Assembly (NCBI GenBank): GCA_964019135.1
Contig: OZ025249.1
Location: 31,447,759-31,511,758 of the forward strand
Length of the DNA: 64,000 nt
Direction of reading: 5' to 3'
Origin: Arenicola marina
Taxonomy: Eukaryota > Annelida > Polychaeta > Arenicolidae
A model generated the notes under the pieces. That model ran no database searches, had not been told where the DNA came from, and worked only from the letters and a program-made list of their open reading frames with translations. Shown here piece by piece: positions 1 to 64,000 of the stretch. Position 1 is the stretch's first letter; every line of letters begins with the position of its first letter. The translations under genes were made by a program, and so were the position numbers.

Positions 1-3000
1 TTTTCTTTGAGGCGCGCGGCGACCGAGCCGGCGTCGAACTGGCGCCGTCTATGTCTCTGTGGCGGGAAGGTCGGCTCGGACATGGCCGTCAGGGGCTTGA
101 AGCGGTCCACGGCGGACACCACGTACATCTCCGGGCCGTTGAAGATGGCCGACAGACTCTTCACCTGAATCGATTAGTATAAGCAAAGATTACCGTAAAC
201 GTTCGAATCTTTCAATACACTGGTGTAGCGTCAATCGTCAGTGGAGCATCGTCATTACACGCCGCACTTACCGGCCGTGCGTCGGTGGTGTACATCAGGC
301 ATACGTCACACTTACCGGGCGTCCGTCGATGGTGTACATCCGGCATACGTCACACTTACCGGGCGTCCGTCGATGGTGTACATCAGGCGTACGTCACGCT
401 TACCGGCCGACCATAGTGTACATTAGGCGTACGTCACACTTACCGGCCATCCGTCGATGGTGTACATCCGGCGTACGTCACACTTACCGGCCGACCGTGC
501 ATGGTGTACATCAGGCGTACGTCACACTTACCGGCCGACCTTCCATGGTGTACATCAGGCGTACGTCACACTTACCGGCCGACCATAGTGTACATTAGGC
601 GTACGTCACACTTACCGGCCGTCCGTCGATGGTGTACATCCGGCGTACGTCACACTTACCGGGCGTCCGTCCATGGTGTACATCAGGCATACGTCACACT
701 TACCGGCCGTCCGTCGATGGCGTACATCTGGCGTACGTCACACTTACCGGCCGTCTGTCCATGGTGTACAACAGGCGTACGTCACACTTACCGGCCGTCC
801 GTCCATGGTGTACATCAGGCGTACGTCACACTTACCGGGCGGCCGTCCATGGTGTACATCAGGCGTACGTCACAATTACCGGCCATCCGTCCATGGCGTA
901 CATCAGGCGTACGTCACACTTACCGGCCGTCCGTCCATGGTGTACATCAGGCGTACGTCACACTTACCGGCCGGGCGTCCATGGTGTACATCTGGCGTAC
1001 GTCACACTTACCGGCCGTCCATGGTGTACATCAGGCGTACGTCACACTTACCGGCCGTCCGTCGATGGTGTATATCCGTCGTACGTCACACTTACCGGCC
1101 ATCCGTCCATGGTGTACATCCGGCGTACGTCACACTTACCGGCCATCCGTCCATGGCGTACATCAGGCGTACGTCACACTTACCGGCCGACCGTGCATGG
1201 TGTACATCAGGCGTACGTCACACTTACCGGCCGACCTTCCATAGTGTACATCAGGCGTACGTCACACTTACCGGCCGACCATAGTGTACATTAGGCGTAC
1301 GTCACACTTACCGGCCGTCCGCCGATGGTGTACATCCGGCGTACGTCACACTTACCGGGCGTCCGTCCATGGTGTACATCAGGCGAACGTCACACTTACC
1401 GGCCGTCCGTCGATGGTGTACATCATGCGTACGTCACATTTACCGGCGGTCTGTCCATGGTGTACAACAGGCGTACGTCACACTTACCGGCCGTCCGTCC
1501 ATGATGTACATCAGGCGTACGTCACACTTACCGGGCGGCCGTCCATGGTGTACATCCGGCGTACGTCACACTTACCGGCCGTCCGTCCATGGTGTACATC
1601 AGGCATACGTCACAGTTACCGACCGGCCGTCCATGGTGTACATCAGGCGTACGTCACACTTACCGGCCGTCCATGGTGTACATCAGGCGTACGTCACACT
1701 TACCGGCCGTCCGTCGATGGTGTATATCCGTCGTACGTCACACTTACCGGCCATCCGTCCATGGTGTACATCCGGCGTACGTCACACTTACCGGCCATCC
1801 GTCCATGGCGTACATCAGGCGTACGTCACACTTACCGGCCGACCGTGCATGGTGTACATCAGGCGTACGTCACACTTACCGGCCGACCTTCCATGGTGTA
1901 CATCAGGCGTACGTCACACTTACCGGCCGACCATAGTGTACATTAGGCGTACGTCACACTTACCGGCCGTCCGTCGATGGTGTACATCCGGCGTACGTCA
2001 CACTTACCGGGCGTCCGTCCATGGTGTACATCAGGCGTACGTCACACTTACCGGCCGTCCGTCCATTGTGTACATCCGGCGTACGTCACACTTACCGGCC
2101 GTCCGTCCATGGTGTACATCAGGCATACGTCACACTTACCGGCCGTCCGTCCATGGTGTACATCAGGCGTACGTCACACTTACCGGCCGTCCGTCCATGG
2201 TGTACATCAGGCGTACGTCACACTTACCGGCCGTCCGTCCATGGTGTACATCAGGCGTACGTCACACTTACCGGCCGTCCGTCCATGGTGTACATCAGGC
2301 GTACGTCACACTTACCGGCCGTCCGTCCATGGTGTACATCAGGCATACGTCACACTTACCGGGCGTCCGTCGATGGTGTACATCAGGCGTACGTCACACT
2401 TACCGGCCGTCCGTCCATGGTGTACATCAGGCGTACGTCACACTTACCGGCCGTCCGTCCATGGTGTACATCAGGCATACGTCACACTTACCGGGCGTCC
2501 GTCGATGGTGTACATCAGGCGTACGTCACACTTACCGGCCGTCCGTCCATGGTGTACATCAGGCGTACATCACACTTACCGGGCGTCCGTCGATGGTGTA
2601 CATCCGGCGTACGGCCATCTGGAACATCTGACTGAGGTCCTCCATGACCTGCTCGAAGCTCTGCGCCGTACGGCGGTTGAGCAGCAGCACGTGTCTCTGC
2701 ATGGGCTCGCCATTCTTTATCACCGTGATCTTCTTCGGCGGCCTAAGCGGCCCGATAGGCACCCCGTTGTCCGGGCGGGGCGCGTCGCCCCACGCGTGCC
2801 GCCGTTCCGACTTGTGGATGCTCTCCCTCTGCCAATCTCTGAGGAAGGCGTTGAGCTGGCGCTTGCCGCTCGGCGCCCTCCCGGCATGCCACGGTTTCAC
2901 CTGGGAGGTCCTGCCAGGTTCAACCGCGCGCGCGAATTTGTTATGGGTCGAGCACACGTAGTGGCCGCCCGGCTCGAGCTTATCCAACGTGTCCACCGAG

Positions 3001-3278
3001 TGCCGACCACGTGACGTGTAGATGCTGCGCACGCCGAATGGAAGTCCGGGGACCTTCCTGGTGAGTTCGTTCTTTAGGACCTCCACATTGTGGTAGTGGC
3101 GCGGGTTTATCGTCAGCTTCAACGCCTGAAAGTTGACGTCGGCGTCTTTGTAGAAGTAGCATATTTTAGTCTGCGGGGGTTCGTAAAGGCTGTAGCGTGT
3201 GATAGGGGCTGTGCCGGGATAGGAGTGCGCCTTGGGGGTACCCCCGTCGTCGTATTCGTCCGTCTCTTCGCTGTACAT
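1..3278 (-). CDS. RP1/RP1L1-type tandem doublecortin protein, 3'-partial
   Basis: Two coding exons are visible: 3278-2580 (233 codons, phase 0) and 164-1 (54 codons, continuing off the window). The first holds a complete doublecortin domain, about residues 35-120 (motifs ICYFYKDADVNF, LPFGVRSIYTSRGRHSV, LEPGGHYVCS), a basic linker, and most of a second domain (KKITVIKNGEP to RMYTIDGRP). The second exon completes it (VKSLSAIFNGPEMYVV, DRFKPL). Doublecortin domains bind microtubules; RP1 proteins act in the ciliary axoneme. The TSRGRHSV motif, the spacing and the divergent C8orf74 neighbour favour RP1/RP1L1 over DCDC2. The ATG at 3278 follows a TTTTGCAG acceptor (exon edge 3317), so a 5'UTR exon must lie upstream. 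The donor is CCG|GTAAGT at 2580/2579. The acceptor at 165-167 has a TACTAAT branch-point match at about 173-179. Oddly, the intron is almost wholly a minisatellite of its own donor. Seen: domains and splice sites. Inferred: ciliary role and RP1 orthology. Confidence 0.86.
241..2617 (-). repeat. 44-bp minisatellite built from an exon/5'-splice-site junction
   Basis: About 54 tandem units with a 44-bp period fill the intron between the two doublecortin exons; a few units are shortened to 40 bp. On the minus strand a unit reads as a short exon-like piece (MYTMDGRP when translated) followed by GTAAGTGTGACGTACGCC. The authentic exon end at 2580 has the same layout: 33 exonic nt from GTACGCCGG to CGCCCG, then 11 intronic nt. 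The heptamer GTACGCC occurs in both the exon and the intron start, 44 bp apart, so the first duplication may have arisen from that pair. Most units keep a consensus GTAAGT; a few have point changes. The period is 3n+2 and plus-strand stops are lacking, so spurious plus-strand frames of up to 420 codons are open. Confidence 0.95.
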
Positions 3279-3317
3279 TGTCAGGTCTGTCTACTTCGTG
3301 GCATGTCAGTTGGAATC

Positions 3318-4971
3318 CTGCAAAATAAATTATACACACTAAGCAACCACGCATTATTACAATGATGTGTAAGTCCTTTAAATTATAAATACAGTGGTAT
3401 TCAGAGTCCTTGCAACGACTACCGCGGATGTTAATGAATAATGTAGATACGTCAGCTCTATGAACAAATACAGAGCAGCATATATGTTGCCCTGCTACGC
3501 CTTCATTGATCTTACAAAAGTTCCTGACACCACCCAATTCGTATTGCGCAATATATCCGGATGTTCCCTTAAGACATCCATCTATATACTCGTTCCTTCC
3601 TTTACAATTGTTGGCGGTTGTATACATGTACGATGGTAAAAGATACTGTTATGTGGGATTGCGCCTGGCTCCAACCATCTTTAGGATTTTAATTCCCATG
3701 CTTCCCACACCGGCGATTTATAATTAAGGAATTCCATTTGCGGCCATGAGGTTTCCAGTCACGTAAAAAGTCGTGGACTGCTGCCCCCGTCGCGAGCTTG
3801 GAGGAACTACATCCTAAACGTTACAACAAAAGTATATATTAACGGCATGGGTCCCCTTTAAAAGCAATTTGAATAGTAGCATTTCTTGAAAAAGAAGCTC
3901 GCTTTCGCCGGATTGGGTAAACAATGCAACGTACGTATCTTTTCCAGGGCACAATGGTGGAAGATCAGATGAGCGCATCCTGCTATCGGTAAATGAACAA
4001 CTGGCCGACCAAAACTGTAAAATGCAACATGCATGTGTCGCCAATGCCGCTTAGCCATCAGGACACTTTAACGCACCACATAATGAACGATCTGCCAACC
4101 AATCATCTCACTAACACAGACGGATGCGATAGAAAGCATGCAACATAGTTAATGATCACCATATTTCATCGTCCACCCTTGGCTGCTAGCTGGATCTAGG
4201 CGATATCCGCTTTTAGCGCCACCATCATTCGCGGAATGAATGACCCGGAAATGAGTGACGGCACCGGAGTATCGTCCAGACTTACCACCAGGTGACGTCA
4301 CGCCACATCTGTGACGTCACGCTAAGAGATCCCGTCGGGCACGTGTTCTCAATTACGTCGGGGTACTCATCCCCGTAGTACCTGTTATCGGCTTTCCAAT
4401 TCGTTACAAAGGAAAACTGGCATCAGTTTAAGCGTCCCGTCTCGACAGCTCAGTCGCCAGTCCATTTATCTAATGAGTGGCAGACTACTCTGGATGGCAC
4501 TCGAGGGGACGGGCCTCGTCCTGTAGGACGTCACCACCGCCACACACGGGGGACAGACACAGCAGCACACTCGCGGGGGCAACCTTTGGAACCAGATCAT
4601 TTTTTCCATAATACCTTATTGTTCCGTTTCTTACTACGAGAGATTGTTGCCAGTATATGAGGTTAACGACCAGGGGTTAACGACCCCCCGACGACAGATT
4701 GCTTGTCTGCTTCTTTAAACTCAACACTGATATCGAGCAGTCCGGCTGGTTCTTGTCTGTACGTGTTCGGCTTGGTAGGATGAGGCTAAGTATATTAAGG
4801 GTTCTGGAAGGGGGGGTCCAGTGTCCAGTGTCGTTTTTTTCAAAATTCGCAGTGAATGTCGATTTTTCACGACGTTCCGTGTCGCTTTTTGGCTACGTTC
4901 AGAGTCGTTTTTGCACAAATCTGTGTCATTCTAGACCCTTATAACGGGTAACAGTTCATTACTGATGGTTG
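3318..4971. other. Intergenic stretch, upstream side of the doublecortin gene
   Basis: I see no convincing coding exon. It should hold the promoter and the 5'UTR exon of the doublecortin gene. Two CRE-like TGACGTCA octamers lie near 4292-4322. Confidence 0.4.
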
Positions 4972-9344: not shown

Positions 9345-9665
9345 GAATCGCAAATCCCCAAATGTGAAGGAAAGTAATATCGAATCTCCAGCAATTGCAA
9401 TGGTCAATAATAAATTTCCGAAGAAACGACAGAACTTGGCGACCGAGGTGTTAATTTCAACTGACGGGGGCGTGATACGGGCGTGGGCGGGGCGGTGGAA
9501 TGTTATCGCGGCATACTGTTGGTGGCGTATCGCGGTCAGGAAATAGTTGAAATCGCGTTGAACCAAAAAATTACAAATAACTATCCCCGAAGATGGCCAA
9601 CAAATAATTGCGAATTTCTGCGAATTTCTAGATGCCAATGGCGGGGATCAGAAAACATACCCCCC
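9345..9665. repeat. Dispersed repeat, copy 1 of an unnamed family
   Basis: Shares ordered blocks with 14690-14960, including GTAATATCGAATCTCC and CGCGTTGAACCA..AATT, and a later block with AACGATCCCC, ATTGCCAAC and AATCGCGAA variants. It ends in a poly-C run, whereas the other copy lies beside a poly-G run. It is probably a decayed transposon. No coding capacity is seen. Confidence 0.55.
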
Positions 9666-9875
9666 CCCCCCTACCCCCTCCATACATAAGTGGTGGGACA
9701 GGTTTCTTGGCCATGACCATTTCAGAATAAGATCCTAATATGACTAAGGACGGTGGAGCTCATGTGCACACATAAAAGGCATAACGCTCCAATCAATCCT
9801 GGGACGGTGTCCCATTATCCCAGCCTATCATTAGTATTATTGCGTCTGACACAGAGTGTGAACTCCAGCTAACGG

Positions 9876-10160
9876 GGGGCCGCCCCGATAGCTCAGTGGG
9901 TTAGAGCGCTCGCCTTGAGTGTTCTGGCCACCTGAGAGCCTAATGACACGTGGATCTGTGACTCGAGCCCCGCTATGGTCATGCATGGCTGCGTTTTTTT
10001 AAACATCATTTATTTCTGGAAGTTTGCAATAGCGAATTCACATGCTCACCTCTGAAGAGTAGGGGTTACCCCGGGGACATGGCTCCGCTCTTCCCTTACT
10101 TCTCTCATTGACGCGATATGACCAGAAATGGTAAAAGCCTCCTGAACCAACCAACCAACC
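9876..10160 (+). mobile_element. tRNA-derived SINE, family 1, complete head
   Basis: The head reads as a tRNA-like A box (TAGCTCAGTGGGTTAGAGCG). A degenerate B box (TGACTCGAGCCCC) lies about 60 bp downstream. The body ends with the GGGGACATGGCTCCGCTC core, TGACGCGATATGACCAGAAATG, and the tail CCAACCAACCAACC. The same order is seen in the other copies. It is a non-autonomous retroposon, not a functional tRNA gene, because the cloverleaf is not maintained. Confidence 0.85.
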
Positions 10161-20615: not shown

Positions 20616-23600
20616 TTAATACTCTAATTCGAAATCAAAATACTCCGAGTCGAAGTTGTGCACTCTGACGTAACCGTCCTCGCCGCCTGACGCGTAACTG
20701 GAAACAAAAGAAACCATCAACGAACGGCCTTGCTCAGCGAAAATCGCCACGTGTGCTATTCACGCACGTAGAGAAATAATCAATCAACAATAAATATGAT
20801 TTGGAACATTTATCCCATGTACAATTCGATAATGAATATTTTTTCTTCTACATATTACGACTATTTGAATAGACATTAGCTCTGGAGGCGCACGGCCGAA
20901 CAGGCAATGCGCACCTACAGATTAATAATCTATGATAGGAGTCTTTCTCGAAACAATTATCACTCTTGGCGATGAGACGGACTACAGCGAGTCTCACAAT
21001 AACTTAATTACTTCCGACTATCTAGAGCAAAAACTACCCCATAACTTACCCGAGACCATCGGGAGTGAAAGCTACGCTGTTGATGGGTCCGAAGTGACCC
21101 TTGATTCTGCCGAACTCCTCTTCGAAGACCACGTGGTAAAACCTCGCATCGAACTTGCCGATCCTGGTGGAGGTGGTTGTCACATCCATGGCCTCCTGTC
21201 CGCCGCCAAGGACCACCTGCAGGACCAGACCGACACAAAGATCACTCAATCGGTACTCTGATGAAAAGATTCGCTGCCCACCTGTCACCTATTCAGGGAC
21301 ACCTGTCATATAGTCAGGGACATCTGTCATATAGTCAGGGACACCGGTCATATAGTCAGGAACACCGGTCATATATTCCGGGACACCTGTCATATAGTCA
21401 GGGACACCTGTCATATAGTCAGGGATACCTGTCATATAGTCAGGGATACCAGTCATATATTCCGGGACACCTGTCATATATTCAGGGACACCTGTCATAT
21501 AGTCAGGGACACCTGTCATATAGTCAGGGACACCCGTCATATATTCAAGGACACCTGTCATATCGCGTCAATAGGAAAGGTCAAAGTAGACAAAGAGCCA
21601 TGCTCCTGCGTTTGACATACTATTCGCCACGAACGGCATGGGATTTTATTTTAAAACACCACAGAACTGTACAGTGCGGGGCGAACTCACAATCTAAACA
21701 GTTCCCCTGTACAAAAAAACTTAATACTCACGTGCGGTTTGGAAGGTGACAGAGCAGCTGAGTTCACCGGCCGTTCTGTCTTGTACGTTTTCTTGTGGTC
21801 TAACGAATATGTATCGAACAACTGAAACCCCCAAGAGCATGGATTATAAACCCAAGGGGCCAAAGTGAGGACCACCAGCAGTCAACCAATAACTACCGAA
21901 ATTTAACCTTTTAGCAGATATACACATAAAACGATGACGAATGTAGACATAAAACCGAACCAGTCGTTTACTGAAGTGCTTTTAAGTTAAGGTTATGATC
22001 GCATTCTAGGCCACGCCGACAGATCTTTAAGATCTGCAGTTCGCATGCTATATTCATGTGTCACCAACAGTGGTGTTGCAGTGTTGAGGACAAACCATAT
22101 ATGAATCACCTTTGCGGTGTTATCCTTTGAAGCTGTGATGATCATGGTCATGTCCTTAGAAAACTGGATGTCGTTAATCTGCTTCGCATGATCCAGTACT
22201 CTGGTAGTCAAAGCCTGAGACTGTAAATTGAAATCAACAAGCATAAAAAAAAAATCTGCATGGCTATCGGTAATACTTGTAGATCAAGAGTCCAACATGG
22301 AATATCGGTCTTAAGATTGTACATCACTGTCTATACATAATAAATGACAAATAAATATGAAACACCTGTACAAACCACATGAAGAAAATAAAATGCGTCA
22401 CGCATCGACATATAAATAAGTGTTTCGCATAAAACGCTGTCTGCATGGCCATCGGTAATAGTCCAAAGTAGAGTACCTGTCTTAGCATTGTACACCAGTG
22501 TCGGCACGTACCGGGATATTAGGAGCTCAGATGTATGAAATAAATGTACAAACAACATGGAGATAAATTAGGTCACGTATCGATATATAAAAAAAGGTAA
22601 AAACTGAATTTGAAATTTAAATCTACAGATGTCTGACCTTTATGTCGTATTGGCAGAGGTCGCCGTTGTCGTGGCCGGTGATGATCATTTCGTCCAAGGG
22701 TCCCCACACTGCAGCAGTCACCTTGGACTTGGCCATGGGGATGCTACACATTGGCTCATTGTTCTCTGAATACCAGTAAAATATTTGCTTTTTAAATTTA
22801 ATCAATTTCTAGCCCCCTCTAAATTAAAATCAACTGATATTTCTGAAGGAATTTGGAATAATAGGTACATAATTACAGGTAAAGGTTACTAATGTTTTGT
22901 GTTACAAATTATCACCTATATACTTTCATACAGGTTCTTGTAAAAGTAATAGCGGTACTAGTGAATGCAACTGTGATTGGCCCAGTCAAGGTTTCTAGTA
23001 CTTGTATACTTTTTTTATATTTTATTTTAACAAAAATAACGTACGTTACCCGGTAATTTACAATTACGTATCATGTATCATGTAATCCATGAAATTCAAG
23101 TGATTTAATATTTAAAAAAATTAACAATCTCACTGATTTGGTAGTCGTCTCTCATATCGTAGACCTGCATTTCACATATCTGGCCCATGGCTTTGTCTGT
23201 TGTGTACATGATGATGTTACCACTGTAGGAAAACCCACATGTCCTTACAGCCGATTTGGTCTCCATCTCCGAGAGTTGAGTCCCTGTATTAAAAACGCAT
23301 GATCAAATATTTTTATCTTACTCTGGGTAATCTGACCTGGACAATATGTGCCCATATATGTCCTTGTCAGTATGAACGATTATACAAACGTTTGTTCCTA
23401 GATATATAAGTCATTTGTTTACAGACATTAAACGTTAAAATTCCACCTGTTCCAATATATATTACATGTGATTTTACAGTCTATTTAGTCCTTCTCTTCT
23501 AAGTTGTATATCTTTCCAACCTGTTTGACAGTCCCATAGCCGACATGTGTTGTCTGCAGATCCAGTCAGCAATTTGCTTGTTTGCCCTGTTTCAAGTACT

Positions 23601-50500: not shown

Positions 50501-53500
50501 GTGGAGTACACTGGGGTCCACCCAGGACTCGCCGGCCGCGGCAACAGAGTCACAGACACCGAGCCGTATGTTCGCACACACCCAACCATCCTGGATCGTA
50601 TTGGAGCAGAAGCCAAACACCGCAGACCAAAAGGGGTGCGCGATCAGATGACTTTGAATAATACTGTTTCCGAGCCACCGTCAGTGATACTACACACTGA
50701 AGAGTAGATACTTAATTGATATATCCCGACTTTGTTGTCAACCAAATTCTCAACTGACTCCACTAGGCGTGGACAAGACCTTCAATATCACCGAGATGCA
50801 CCTGATGACGACAAGAACCTGGCGCTAATCAAGAAAGAAACCAGAGATCATCCCCTTTGTTTCGGCCCGATATTTCTGCATGGGAATTCCGACTTCGAAA
50901 ACTTCTCGTTTTTTTTCACACATCTGGCTATGCAGCTTTCTGGATCGCTGTCACAACTAACCATAGGCAGTGATGACGAGAAGGCACTGCGGAAAGCGAT
51001 GAGGCATGCCTTCCCAGAGGCAGACATGATAACGTGCGAGCGGCATCTTCGCAACAACGTCATAGACAACTTCCATGACAAGCTGGGAACCAACACTAAG
51101 GGCCGAAATACACTCGTGAAAATCATTTTTGGTCAAGAGAGAATATCACATACATCCACAGAAGCGGAGTTTCAGGCGAAAAGTAAAGTCGCACAATGCC
51201 TCATCGCAGAAGTAGACTACAACCTTTGGCGACTACACGAGAAAATGAGATGCCTGCCGTTGTTCCGCGAAAATGCTGCTGCCCAGTTTCAGTATAGGAA
51301 AATGGAGCGGACGCGGCAGCATGGTGCTAAAAAGGACGAAGGAACAACGGGAACGACACATTCAGCGCTTTCTCCACCATATACGGACTGACCCGCAGCC
51401 ACAACGAAGGATCGGAAACTGACAGTGCTGACTGCGTCCCTGGCTGGCAGGAAGCCACACCATCGGAAACGAGGAAGAGACGAGACAACCACGACAGCCA
51501 ACAAGAAAATTAAAAAGTGCTGAGCTGCTACACTGAGCTATTCACTGTATTCACTATAGTATTCAGCTTTCATGTACATATCTCTTTATTGTTAATTGCG
51601 CAGTGTGTGTACCGATGTATATACAATGTGTACGCAAGGATCTCATGGGCCAAACCTGGCAATAAAAGAATGTAATATAACATTGAAAAATACGACCATT
51701 GTTGTTTTCTCCAGTGCTGATATAGGCCTCTAGATTGTTGCTTGTGAGTACCTGTTTGTATTGCCGGTAGCAATTCAGTGTAGGTCATTCATTTTGTGGT
51801 ACTTCACGTTGTATTATAATTTCGAGGGTATGAGCAACACCAGGTTGTTTCGTCTTTCTCTTCAGTTTTCCAGCAGGTCCCCATGTCCAGTTTCATCTCA
51901 TGTCTGCAGAATGTGGCCTTAAAACTAATTCATTCCATACGACCAAACAAGAAAATAAAGTTATGTTCTTTTGCTTCAGCAAACAAGGGAAAACGCACCC
52001 CAGGGAGTGAAAAGAAGAAGAGGCAAAATGCGTTTCTTAGAGAAATACTGCACAATCAAAGTCAGGTATGTTTCCAAGTATGTGTTCATATAGTGTTCGG
52101 TGGCATTGCTTGATTACTTCTGAACGGTAAGAGATACAGATATACACTCTAATATGCTATAATAGTCATTGTATGAGTGCAATTAAGAGATGAAAATGAG
52201 CTGTGGATAATAGTGCCATGGTGTCTGTATCAATCTTGGCCAATGATAAAGACTGGTATGCGCTCCACGTTTGACGTAATGGCAGATCGGTCGTAATGCA
52301 TGAGAAACAAAATTCGCAGTTCAGATTCACGTGATGCAACTTTATGCGTCAAACCTGTAGCGCACAGGTGGGTGCGTTAATCATTCTGCGATTTCTGGTT
52401 CTAGATTGAGGATGCCTTGGCAACCTCTGACAAAGTGATGGCTGTAGTTAAAGACCTATTTGGAGATGACCCAAAGGTTTGTCATTACTACATGTATTGC
52501 AAAATTAACGTGGCTAGAAATATCCCCCCAGAGAATATGTGATACACAAAACACAACTGTAGTTAATTCTCCATCTTCGCGGAGGGAGCTTACCCAGCTC
52601 AGTTAGTAAGCAGGCTGAGCTGCAAATCAACATGTCGTGGATGCGAATCCTGGCCAATTTTTATTTTCCTGCCAGGTTTCTTGGCCCAATTTAGATTTTA
52701 TCCGCCCAAAAGCGGCCTGAAGCACGCGCATGTCATTTCATGTTACATCTTCACGGGCGACAGACCACGATTTGTGCACCACCGAATATTTATAGCGTAG
52801 ATGTACAAATTATTACTATTTATTTATGTACGTGATATTCTACTAACTGTTCGACTGTCTTACACATATATTTTTGTCAAATCAGAAGTTTAGAGGACTG
52901 CCGAACGTCACAGTGGCACCAAACCAGACAGGAATATCTTTAGACAAGTAGGTATACTAAAGAAAGATAAAGTTGTTCTGGTTTCTTTAACTATGGGACT
53001 GAGAGGCCACTAGTTATTCAGTGGTATACGGCGGATAATATGGACTCCAAAATCATGGCAGTATTTAAAACGGCTTTTGGCTTTTGATAAATGTTTGCTC
53101 TTCGTCTAGTTTTTCATTATGTCTAAAGATGGGTTCTCGTTTAAGGTTAAGTAGATTGTAGTCAGTTGTGGGAACCTTGAATATTTAACACTTTTCGCGT
53201 GCCAGGCAGCTATATATGTTTATGTCAATTACGTACTCACATTGCAGCAGCAGGTTGCCTGATGGTCGCTTCCCCAATGATCCTTCCAAACTAGACATTC
53301 TCAGTGACTCTCTTATGGATAAAACTGCTTTGAACGATCTTGAAAATGAATATACCACGGAATCAGGTACGTCTTTTGTATACATTTACAGTGTCACAGT
53401 CTGCGTATATATAATTTCATTACGAAGTCCCATGATGGGGCGAATAAATTCACTCAGGCCAGGGATAAGGATACCAGTAATTGCATCTATTCATATGTTG

Positions 53501-56500: not shown

Positions 56501-58310
56501 TTCCCATTGATGCGATATGACTAAATGTGGTTAAAGCGTCCTGAATATACAACCAACCAACCTATCTACATACAATTTTTTTTAAACATATATTATACAT
56601 CAGTTATCTCAATATAAAAACTCCAAATATTTCTTGCCATTTTGTGCAATGTTTTAGAGCATCCAGAAAACTGAAAAAGTATATTTTTCTTTTTATTTTC
56701 ATACATATGTACCGGGTATTTTAATCTAAGCGAGTGCAATTCTGTTCCACAATGCACCCACAGGGATGGCTGAGGAGTCGACCCCCTGGATGCCCCAGTT
56801 GGTTACACGTGGACCGGTTACTACCATGGCGGGGGCAATTGCGTCATATCCGGCCACGTTGCTTTCTCCACCTAAACAGGCAGATAGTCCAAAAGTTACG
56901 GGTGAGCAGTGCGCCCTATTTACTATATACATGTATTATGGGCAAACGCAATTGCTTAATAGTATTTAGCAGGTGTATGTAATTCTATTGCGATTTCTTG
57001 CTCTTTACTTCCATGCAATTTTATAAATACCAGGTATAAAGAGAGGAAATTTATACAATATGATATAAAGACCAGAGCTTGCCAGAATGCAAGAATAAAA
57101 ACTAAATTTAAAGTTAACAACCTCTTCGTAGGATAATTGTTTCATATGGTGTGAGCCTTTTTGTTTTTCTTTATACGTCATTTATCCATCTCTTGTTATG
57201 TTTATACAGACTAGTTGTAATTTGATTTTGATTTCATTCGGTCTACTGGCACTGTCTACTGGCACTGTCACTGTCTACTGGCACTGTCAGCCTCAAAGGC
57301 TATTTAGGTTATGTGTCAGGCAAAAAAAAATGTCTTCAAGTGAAACATCCAGTGTTAGTAAGCCTGAAGGTAAGCATGAATTAGTAATTTTATAAGTGCA
57401 TTTCTTTTGTTAATCCTCAGGCGGTAGACACATTGGTCATCCCCATGATATGAGACAGTCATTGCGATTTGGAGCTCCACAAAACGTGCAACAGATCATT
57501 CAGCTGCAACAGCTGCAGCAACAGCAAAGACAAATGATGCAAGAGCAGCAAGAGCAAAAAGAAATGATGCAAGAGCAGCAACAACAACAGGTTAATTTGC
57601 AAAACCAGCAACAGCAAAAAGAAATGATGCAAGAGCAGCAACAACAACAGGTTAATTTGCAAAACCAACAACGACATCAGGCTGCGTTACAACAGCACCA
57701 ACAACAGAGACCAGTGCCGCGAGAGGATGAAACAGGGATTGAACATGCTTCCCCCCAATCGTCGACTCTACAGTCCCAACCCCTGCCCAATCAGCCTGCC
57801 CGCCCCGCAGTTCACACCCACCCTGCCCCGGATGCCGACCAGTGGTTCCCCGGCCCGCCGAGGGAGGGCGCCAGTGTTGAGGACACGGTGACCACTAATT
57901 TGCATTATAAGCTGCAGCAGATTAATCAGCGGGACAATGCTAGCCCCGGGGCGGCGGTCCCCACGTCTACCGGGCTGCCGCAGCCAATGACCGCATGGGA
58001 GCACCACCCGGCACAGTTTACAGGCCCGCACGCCGTTAAAGTCACCGCGCCAGGCCCGACCGGTCTACCGAAACCGTTCCCCGTGGGAGGGTTCACCCAG
58101 CGGGGCCCTGTCCGCCCATCCTATGGCGGCGACGCCCCCGTCCTGCCGGCGCCGGGCCAGGGAGCGGCCGCCCAGCCCCGGGCTGACAACCACTCGGCCC
58201 TGCAGCAGAAGCTGGCGGCGTTAAGCCTGCAGCACAGCGAGGCGCAGCAGAAGCTGCAGGAGCTCATGCAGCAGACCATGGAAGGAGGTCACCACCAGGT
58301 GGCGACACAG
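47574..58310 (+). CDS. SPICE1: SPICE1 homologue (centriole duplication), 3'-partial
   Basis: Fifteen exons give 812 codons in continuous phase: 47574-47681, 48699-48746, 49135-49213, 51980-52065, 52405-52476, 52886-52947, 53248-53366, 53689-53871, 54253-54452, 55022-55168, 55506-55598, 55809-55901, 56207-56324, 56764-56901 and 57421-58310. SPICE1 is a coiled-coil centriole and spindle protein needed for centriole duplication and chromosome congression. Matches to the human protein are MSFVKLPS at the start, PQWDSTVNDLSVYKASPDEI, KFRGLPNVTVAPNQ, the conserved block GYTLALVQAVSKLSGYLKE with SELQLRAEMTVRQQL and LKALVDALTS (residues 320-400), and LQQKLAALSLQHSEAQQKL near the end. The last exon seen has a Gln-rich stretch with a 20-residue duplication. 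The start exon follows a TTTTGCAG acceptor at 47539, so a noncoding 5' exon exists. The exon at 58310 has a GTCAGT donor, so the C terminus lies beyond the window or was missed. Confidence 0.9.
47845..48115 (+). repeat. Strand-asymmetric G-rich purine tract
   Basis: About 270 bp in SPICE1 intron 1 is very largely G and A on the plus strand, with many GGG/GGGG runs (GGAGGGGGAGGGGGTGG, GTTGGGGGGAAAGGG). Several four-run clusters could form G-quadruplexes or triplexes. Confidence 0.8.
48286..48360. repeat. ~20-bp tandem repeat
   Basis: Four units of the form TGTCCCATTATTTTTTGGG, slightly diverged, in SPICE1 intron 1. Confidence 0.85.
49482..49675 (+). mobile_element. tRNA-derived SINE, family 2, copy 2
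   Basis: Shares GGCTGGCAGGGTTGTGCGTT with the family-2 copy at 44002, then CCCATATTTTCTCT, a GGTCCT..CACGGT.GTC block and a GAT..AAATC..GATC end. It lies just downstream of the SPICE1 exon 49135-49213. Confidence 0.7.
50218..51690 (+). mobile_element. MULE-like transposase remnant in a SPICE1 intron
   Basis: Two frames in the same register (50477-50707 and 50732-51391) carry a phrase YVRTHPTILDRIGAEAKHRR and then a MULE-type DDE region (IGSDDEKALRKAMRHAFPEA, ITCERHLRNNVIDNF) where transposases of the Mutator-like superfamily have T-D-x-x-x-A...FP.A....C..H. After a likely one-base shift near 51355, a third segment continues (TFSAFSTIYGLTRSHNEGSE) and ends with a Lys-rich tail at 51523. An AATAAA follows at about 51660. 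In-frame stops and the shift indicate a pseudogene. I did not find terminal inverted repeats. It lies in the large intron between the exons at 49135-49213 and 51980-52065. Confidence 0.6.
52585..52790 (+). mobile_element. tRNA-like SINE, family 3
   Basis: An A-box-like CTTACCCAGCTCAGTTAGTA and a B-box-like GTGGATGCGAATCCTGG are about 50 bp apart, followed by an unrelated body (TTTCTTGGCCCAATTTAG). It lies in a SPICE1 intron. Only one copy is seen in this window. Confidence 0.5.
56387..56562 (+). mobile_element. tRNA-derived SINE, family 1, 5'-truncated
   Basis: Lacks the tRNA-like head. It keeps GCAGGATAAAGATACGATGTCC, the GGGGACATGGCTCCACTC core, TGATGCGATATGACTAAATG and the CAACCAACCAACC tail. 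It lies 60 bp after the splice donor of SPICE1 exon 56207-56324. Confidence 0.8.
57541..57670 (+). repeat. 60-bp coding duplication in the SPICE1 Gln-rich region
   Basis: 57541-57600 and 57601-57660 are almost identical and in frame, giving two copies of KEMMQEQQQQQVNLQNQQ. The surrounding codons mix CAG and CAA. Confidence 0.92.
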
Positions 58311-61724: not shown

Positions 61725-64000
61725 ACCCCCTGGACTGTATGGTGTCAGGTATTGGTGTCAGTATGGCCCCGACACCCCCTGGACTGAATGGCGTCAGGTG
61801 GTATTGGTGTCAGTATGGCCCTGACGCCCCCTGGACTGTATGGTGTCAGGTATTGGTGTCAGTATATCCCTGACACCCTCTGGACTGAATGGCGTCAGGT
61901 GGTATTGGTGTTAGTATGGCCCTGACGCCCGCTGATCTGATCGGTGTCAGGTGTTGGTGTCAGTATGGCCCCGATACCCCCTGGACTGAATGGTGTCAGG
62001 TATTGGTGTCAGTATGGCCCCGATACCCCCTGGACTATATGGTGTCAGTATGGCCCCGATACCCCTGGACTGTATGGTGTCAGTGTGGCCCTGACGCCCC
62101 CTGGACTGTATGGTGTCAGGTATTGGTGTCAGTATGGTCCCGACACCCCCTGGACTGAATGGTGTCAGGTGGTATTGGTGTCAGTATGGCCCTGACGCCC
62201 GCTGGTCTGATCGGTGTCAGGTGTTGGTGTCAGTAAGGCCCTCACGCCCCCTGGACTGAATGGTGTCAGGTGGTATTGGTGTCAGTATGGCCCTCACGCT
62301 CCGTGACGTGAATGGTGTCAGGTATTGGTGTCAGTATATCCCTGACGCCCCCTGTACTGATGGTGTCAGGTATTGGTGTCAGTATGGCCCTCACGCTCCC
62401 TGTGCTGAATGGTGTCAGGTATTGGTGTCAGTATGGCCCTCGCGCTCCCTGTGCTGAATGGTGTCAGGTATTGGTGACAGTGTGGCCCTGACCACCCCCC
62501 CCCCGCCCTGTACTGATGGTGTCAGATATTGGTGTCAGTATATCCCTGACGCCCTCTGTACTGATGGTGTCAGGTATTGGTGTCAGTATATCCCTGACGC
62601 TCCCTGTGCTGAACGGTGTCAGGTATTGGTGTCAATGTGGCCCTGACTGTATGGTGTCAGGTATTAGTGCGAATGTGGCCCTGACGCCCCCTGGACTGTA
62701 TGGTGTCAGTGTGGTCCTGACGCCCCCTGGAATGAATGGTGTCAGGTGGTATATTGGTGTCAGTGTGGCCCTGACGCCCCCTGGACTGAATGGCGTCAGG
62801 TATTGGTATCAGTATGGCCCTGACGCCCCCTGGTCTGAATGGTGTAAGGTATCGGTGTCAGTGTGGCCCTCACGCTCGCTGGTCTGATTGGTGTCAAGTA
62901 TTGGTGTCAGTATGGCCCTCAAGCTCCCTGGACTGTATGGTGTCAGGTATTGGTGTCAGTGTGGCCCTGACGCCCCCTGGAATGAATGGTGTCAGGTGGT
63001 ATATTGGTGTCAGTGTGGCCCTGACGCCCCCGGGAACTGTATGGTGTCAGGTATTGGTGTCAGTGTGGCCCTGACGCCCCCTGGAATGAATGGTGTCAGG
63101 TGGTATTGGTGTAGGTATGACCCTGACGCTCACTGGTCTGAATGGTGTCAGGTATTGGTGTCAGTGTGGCCCTGACCCTGCCGGGTCTGAATGGTGCCAG
63201 GTATTGGTGTCAGTGTGGCCCTGACGCCTCCTGGACTGTATGGTGTCAGGTATTGGTGTCAGTGTGGCCCTGACGCCCCCTGGAATGAATGGTGTCAGGT
63301 GGTATATTGGTGTCAGTGTGGCCCTGACGCCCCCTGGACTGTATGGTGTCAGGTATTGGTGTCAGTATGGCCCTGACGCCCCCTGGTCTGAATGGCGTCA
63401 GGTATTGGTCTCAGTGTGGCCATGACGCCCCCTGGACTGTATGGTGTCAGGTATTGGTGTCAGTGTGGCCCTGACGCCCCCTGGACTGTATGGTGTCAGG
63501 TATTGGTGTCAGTGTGGCCCTGACGCCCCCTGGAATGAATGGTGTCAGGTGGTATATTGGTGTCAGTGTGGCCCTGACGCCCCCTGGACTGTATGGTGTC
63601 AGGTATTGGTGTCAGTGTGGCCCTGACGCCCCCTGGACTGTATGGTGTCAGGTATTGGTGTCAGTGTGGCCCTGACGCCCCCTGGAATGAATGGTGTCAG
63701 GTGGTATATTGGTGTCAGTGTGGCCCTGACGCCCCCTGGACTGTATGGTGTCAGGTATTGGTGTCAGTGTGGCCCTGACGCCCCCTGGACTGTATGCTGT
63801 CAGGTATTGGTGTCAGTGTGGCCCTGACGCCCCCTGGACTGTATGGTGTCAGTGTGGCCCTGACGCCCCCTGGAATGAACGGTGTCAGGTGGTATTATGG
63901 TGTCAGTGTGGCCCTGACGCCCCCTGGACTGTATGGTGTCAGGTGATATTGGTATCAGTGTGGTCCTGACGCCCCCTGGACTGATTGGTGATTCGTATCA
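61725..64000. repeat. 49-bp minisatellite running off the window
   Basis: About 45 units with a 49-bp basic period, such as GGTGTCAGGTATTGGTGTCA followed by GTGTGGCCCTGACGCCCCCT and GGACTGTAT, interspersed with 52-53-bp variants carrying GGTGGTATATTGG. Each contains the short inverted repeat GTCAG..CTGAC around TGTGGCC. Higher-order groups of two or three units recur and are most homogeneous after 63190. The numerous 60-120-codon plus frames here are repeat artefacts. Confidence 0.95.

Follow-up and report, generated by a model that had tools for sequence, protein, structure and literature searches.

In amphioxus, minisatellite-like duplications of intron/exon boundaries, known as mirages, have been described in globin genes and in Adh3; they are reported to be unstable in length and to splice normally (PMC3087553). 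The genes for troponin C (TnC) and PGBD5 were added to those carrying mirages (PMC3902484), and both reports describe splicing as undisturbed by amphioxus mirages (PMC3087553, PMC3902484). A different outcome is given for the minisatellite of IFI6, where two downstream repeat units are reported to serve as donors and three mRNA species are produced (PMC4526556, citing Turri et al. 1995). When several U1 particles occupy alternative donors, the choice of site is said to change while the efficiency does not, unless the sites are too close to each other (PMC5389562).

The window analysed here, a stretch of 64,000 nt from the polychaete Arenicola marina, holds a very large new case of this already described kind, located in an intron of a gene with doublecortin (DCX) domains (Table 1). 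A sequence-only reading had reported a minisatellite of about 50 donor junctions directly behind the real donor. The array and its place were borne out: TRF returned a single array there (window 265-2613, period 44, 53.9 copies, 90% matches), and 54 donor-like junctions, the real one included, run from 2579 downward. The copy number needed correction, as splitting the array at its junctions gave 53 complete units with 32 distinct sequences; 47 of them are 44 nt long and 6 are 40 nt long. As that reading had proposed, a unit combines the 11 nt with which the intron opens and the 33 nt, or in six of the units the 29 nt, with which the exon closes. The further claim that no such minisatellite had been described fails, given the amphioxus mirages (PMC3087553, PMC3902484) and IFI6 (PMC4526556).

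Table 1. Features of the doublecortin exon, its downstream intron and the array within it; coordinates are positions in the window.
Feature	Coordinates	Strand	Details
Real 5' splice site, CCG/GTAAGT	2574..2582	minus	First intron base 2579; exon/intron boundary 2580/2579
53-unit array behind real donor	271..2579	minus	53 decoy junctions
Most uniform 11 units, adjoining real donor	2096..2579	minus	Units differ pairwise by 1.27 positions on average; the remaining 42, by 4.07
Internal DCX exon, RP1-like gene	2580..3317	minus	738 nt if the acceptor-like TTTTGCAG ending at 3318 is right
Intron	2579 to 165	minus	2415 nt; acceptor AG ends at 165
Residual intron past last junction	165..271	minus	107 nt; TACTAAT branch-like site, ATTCAG acceptor
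Next exon (VKSLSAIFNGPEMYVVSAVDRFKP...)	1..164	minus	Starts at 164 and runs on left of the window; completes second DCX domain

The junctions are nearly uniform. Fifty of the 54 read exactly CCG/GTAAGT, so that nearly every unit does carry GTAAGT as had been claimed, and the other four have GTAACT, GTAAAT, GTAATT and GTAAGC; 50 of the 54 also match CAGGTAAGT at 8 of 9 positions. Within the consensus unit AG occurs only inside the donor, and the consensus therefore lacks an acceptor. Read in the frame of the exon, each of the 53 decoys leads from DGRP to VSVMYA and a stop (TIDGRPVSVMYA-stop), and only the first junction of the 54 reads on into the next exon. The prediction that use of a decoy would truncate the protein inside the second doublecortin domain thus held for all 53. 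The idea that RNA structure hides the decoys was rejected: measured over 9 nt, the real donor has an accessibility of 0.0056, and this value is exceeded in 21 of the 53 decoys. A query of 261 bases of the array, searched against the 867-Mb assembly, gave 14 scored matches, all 14 within the array; this does not prove the array to be unique, as the search skips very common words.

The coding part of the DCX exon extends from an ATG at 3278 to 2580 and gives 233 aa with two DCX domains. Pfam DCX matched the exon in two stretches (E = 2.6e-29), the second domain breaking off at position 39 of the 60-position profile. Splicing the exon to its neighbor from the donor named in the sequence-only reading completes this domain: the joined exons cover positions 1-60 of 60 with 48.3 bits, compared with positions 1-39 and 33.6 bits for the exon without its neighbor and 1-41 and 37.5 bits with the decoy ending VSVMYA. 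The residual intron past the last junction has the size of an ordinary small intron. Further left of the window, PLAT exons are found on the same contig and strand, and they probably belong to the gene of the DCX exon. With two DCX domains and PLAT exons nearby, the host gene looks RP1-like, and its product may be a cilium or photoreceptor-type protein; the source annotation "retinitis pigmentosa 1" is attached to 2 of 36 related proteins.

The units of the array differ in their similarity to each other along its length. The array is most homogeneous at the exon side and most divergent at the intron side, and none of 20,000 random draws of 11 units was as uniform as the 11 exon-side units. Because these units are the most uniform, turnover on the exon side looks recent. 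The unit types form blocks that reappear at lags of 15 and 31 units. The real exon tail shows three differences from the array consensus, and six of the 53 units (2535, 2403, 2007, 659, 403 and 359) are within one difference of it, some near both ends of the array and two inside. We infer that the array derives from the exon from the conservation of the encoded protein, not from the likeness of the units to the exon tail.

Taken together, we consider it likely that the array is an exon-intron boundary minisatellite of the mirage type, mostly neutral, removed with the intron from the exon-side donor and belonging to a class that recurs in this genome. According to this explanation, a short segment reaching from the doublecortin exon's end into an old intron of roughly 100 nt would have been tandemly duplicated and would have grown to 53 units by slippage and unequal exchange, most recently beside the exon. 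The exon-side donor would be the one most likely used, because it is transcribed ahead of the decoys and the complete exon backs it, and the whole array would leave with the intron; the decoys would persist as rarely used sites, not as selected ones. The explanation builds on the anatomy of the array, its homogeneity gradient and the old position of the intron. Among the points against it, intron definition could favor the donor at 271, the last in the row, which would reduce the intron to 107 nt and truncate the protein, and donors in repeat units are used in IFI6.

What is probably the same gene has three further boundary arrays, one at a donor and two at acceptors. The donor array, downstream of the first (L011 4598-4975), has 14 junctions and a 29-nt unit. 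On the acceptor side of its exon lies an array with 113 copies of a 43-nt unit (L011 5134-9901 and L009 1-107; C2:31433248-31438107), in which the CAG of the real acceptor is present in none of 112 units, its C being replaced by G in 109, by A in 2 and by T in 1. This array, a single case, fits the logic of the first-transcribed donor in reverse: the copies precede the real acceptor, and their CAG is lost. A degenerate acceptor array of 7 units stands before a PLAT exon and, by eye, keeps CAG in 3 of 6 copies. The exon at the L011 junction gave no Pfam match and no homologue among proteins of similar length; it has a weak beta-trefoil match (E = 0.00061). This exon and those of L029 and L033 (below) were called from their open frames and splice signals together with the adjoining array.

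Boundary arrays were not confined to this gene. Among 20 random 10-kb pieces of the genome (L012-L031), at least one, L029, contains a donor array, with 10 junctions and a 51-nt unit. ORFs upstream of its junction match sodium-coupled monocarboxylate transporter 1 (SMCT1), an SLC5-like protein (E = 1.5e-5); the match is limited to these ORFs, and the junction exon itself has none. In ALDH1L1, a 6787-nt intron of which both flanking exons were read has a donor array of 39-nt units (L032 and L040, C1:605784-612571), about 167 by length, with the array interior seen only as pattern matches; the protein match (E = 1.4e-21) extends up to the last residue before the junction. A donor array with a 25-nt unit belongs to an HDHD5/CECR5-like exon (TIGR01456 E = 2e-6, below the curated cut-off), and one with a 27-nt unit to the L033 exon, which has two open frames and no credible protein match. 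The recurrence of boundary arrays at several exons of one genome is what is new here, and searches of an open-access library gave no description of recurrence on such a scale.

The screens also returned arrays of other kinds. In the window, GTRAGT was absent from both strands of nine other arrays checked, and an ORF-edge screen tied no exon to the AGGTR-bearing arrays at 21279, 59026 and 61726. The last of these places begins a 49-nt minisatellite (61726-63990, on into L010 to about 749) with CAGGTAT donor-like sites in many units on the plus strand. The window also has an in-frame Q-rich coding repeat with 30/60/90-nt periods in a 320-aa open frame (57515-57703) and a MULE transposase-like open frame (50720-51391; Pfam MULE E = 1.3e-6). 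An array in L031 (4286-4520) lies directly behind the donor-like GGGTAAGTGG, but its unit, by eye, lacks the exon end and it was not counted. In the same piece, an exon-like frame is present in two similar copies, and a GTGAGG-rich array comes immediately after each (4250-4520 and 9656-9901). L013, L016, L025 and L027 hold further candidates from the screen.

If our small samples hold, boundary arrays may number in the thousands genome-wide, given 1 in the 200 kb of random sequence and 3 in 1.09 Mb at the end of one contig. The latter figure comes from the pattern of three spaced GGTAAGT: among the matches listed, which were the first in contig order, six arrays fell in the first 1.09 Mb of contig C1, three of them boundary arrays, one without a clear exon and two not traced to their edge. 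A broader proposal is that splice junctions are recurrent birthplaces of minisatellites, with a genome-wide process repeatedly duplicating exon-end/intron-start segments and leaving donor copies intact and acceptor copies, in at least one array, broken. Early transcription of the true donor, ahead of its copies, could then be what keeps donor copies intact, while the broken acceptor copies are transcribed before the true acceptor. We put this forward tentatively, as one chance among several and clearly less probable than the mostly neutral boundary minisatellite.

We find it improbable that the array is a regulatory device in which U1 binds the decoys, some transcripts stop at VSVMYA and undergo nonsense-mediated decay, and copy number tunes the level of the RP1-like protein. 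In its favor are the match of 50 of the 54 junctions to CAGGTAAGT at 8 of 9 positions and the truncation that every decoy would cause, and IFI6 is reported to use two downstream repeat units as donors to give three mRNA species (PMC4526556). The substitutions within the array do not support purifying selection on the decoy donors: the donor hexamer, 6 of the 44 positions, has 4 of 31 distinct substitutions, whereas 4.2 are expected by chance. Two post hoc contrasts point the opposite way. All 5 variants in the donor region (-3 to +6) are found in a single unit each, whereas among the 26 variants elsewhere this is true of 8 (Fisher P = 0.0076). In addition, none of the 31 substitutions falls in positions -2 to +4 (P = 0.011). 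Both hint that broken donors were not amplified, which favors the regulatory device and counts against the neutral explanation.

The predicted outcomes of decoy use speak against regulation, as they vary at similar exons. In ALDH1L1, the unit keeps the frame and has no stop in the bases read, and use of a decoy would insert 13-residue repeats. A stop is predicted in L011 and L036; in L029, two units are in frame before the third copied unit brings a stop; and L033 is open in one of its frames, with few bases covered. Because the outcomes differ among exons, between a stop and an open frame, we doubt that the arrays have a dedicated regulatory role. Moreover, published mirages are reported to splice normally (PMC3902484, PMC3087553), and multiple U1 particles are described as altering site choice and not efficiency unless the sites are sterically close (PMC5389562). 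The sequence-only reading had suggested that the array acts as a U1 sponge, as a splice rheostat or as a source of poison isoforms, and these roles would appear to be without support here.

We give equally little weight to an active process, such as one driven by R-loops, a nuclease or stalling of a polymerase at junctions, that would target the birth of minisatellites to splice sites and produce boundary arrays above chance. It would account for the four boundary arrays, one of them degenerate, in probably one gene and for the others at four other exons. It would also agree with the genome-wide search for three spaced GGTAAGT, which gave 30,039 matches as against 13,253 for the backward control, but these figures count places matched, not arrays, and rely on one control pattern. 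On the other hand, minisatellites with a period of at least 10 and at least 3 copies make up on average 36% (median 33%) of the 20 random pieces, and with about one-third of the sampled DNA being minisatellite, chance overlap with junctions and tolerance may suffice. One of these pieces, L018, is a single array over its whole 10 kb.

Multiplication of a few real units by the assembler is very unlikely. Tandem arrays are prone to errors in assembly, and the unit count comes from one assembly; against an artefact stand the 32 distinct sequences among the 53 units, the block lags of 15 and 31 units and the presence of like arrays at independent loci.

The age of the intron was assessed from 36 related proteins, found in a search limited to lengths between 0.55 and 1.75 times that of the query, a range that leaves out full-length gene products. 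Two relatives, P0004 and P0007, read through an in-frame intron (40 and 27 codons; 120 and 81 nt) and then match the next exon strongly. Because these two read through the intron at the boundary residue and joining the exons completes the domain, we judge the intron to be old, with a length of about 80-120 nt in the two relatives. The residue V after the boundary is invariant in all 36 proteins, and the tail continues as VS in 26 of them, as expected of a GTNAG donor read through. The tails of the other 34 relatives gave no significant match to the next exon (200 shuffles each, lowest fraction 0.065), in a test that has low power for the 23 of 36 relatives with tails of 15 residues or shorter. 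P0001 is doubtful, as with its tail included the DCX score rises from 30.5 bits to 39.7 and the match reaches profile position 49; in the tails of four other relatives, the DCX match reaches positions 40, 43, 50 and 53. By eye, none of the 36 tails resembles the array. The array would thus only have enlarged a pre-existing intron of roughly 100 nt and not have been its origin. That a tandem duplication of an exon segment with a donor-like site created the intron, although AG/GT tandem duplication is a published model of intron gain for which mirages were suggested to supply the material (PMC3087553), is rejected as extremely improbable, as it requires the intron to be absent from relatives and two of them carry it at exactly the boundary residue, the other relatives found are consistent with one, and the acceptor end is unrelated to the unit.

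With tens to perhaps more than 150 near-identical donors behind the real one, as in ALDH1L1, boundary arrays are a natural experiment on how the spliceosome chooses its site. Should the frequency seen in the small samples hold, they also bear on intron size, gene prediction and genome assembly in the lineage. If minisatellites truly arise again and again at splice junctions, nature would have supplied thousands of multi-donor constructs for testing splice-site choice.

The array described here is a mirage in its make-up, as its unit holds the end of an exon and the start of an intron and the array abuts an authentic junction of a real gene. Its kinship with the amphioxus mirages may be seen as one by likeness only. 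Like those of Adh3, BflGb6, BflGb9, TnC and PGBD5, it has a unit that spans the exon/intron boundary and lies at the authentic site, and in both systems 5' and 3' boundaries are affected, splice signals are carried along and the units are partly homogenized. For mirages, homogenization is expected in the interior and not at the cluster boundaries; in the present array the intron-side end is the most divergent, but the exon-side end is the most uniform. The two differ in scale: the arrays counted here have from 10 to about 168 donor junctions, whereas the BflGb6 haplotypes of amphioxus have 3 and 6 units, and here several arrays occur in probably one gene and more at several other exons. Intron gain by tandem duplication also copies a segment with splice signals, but the intron studied here appears to be old and merely enlarged. 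As in IFI6, the repeat units supply alternative donors directly behind the real one; in IFI6 two downstream units are reported to be used, whereas use of a decoy in the doublecortin intron would truncate the protein.
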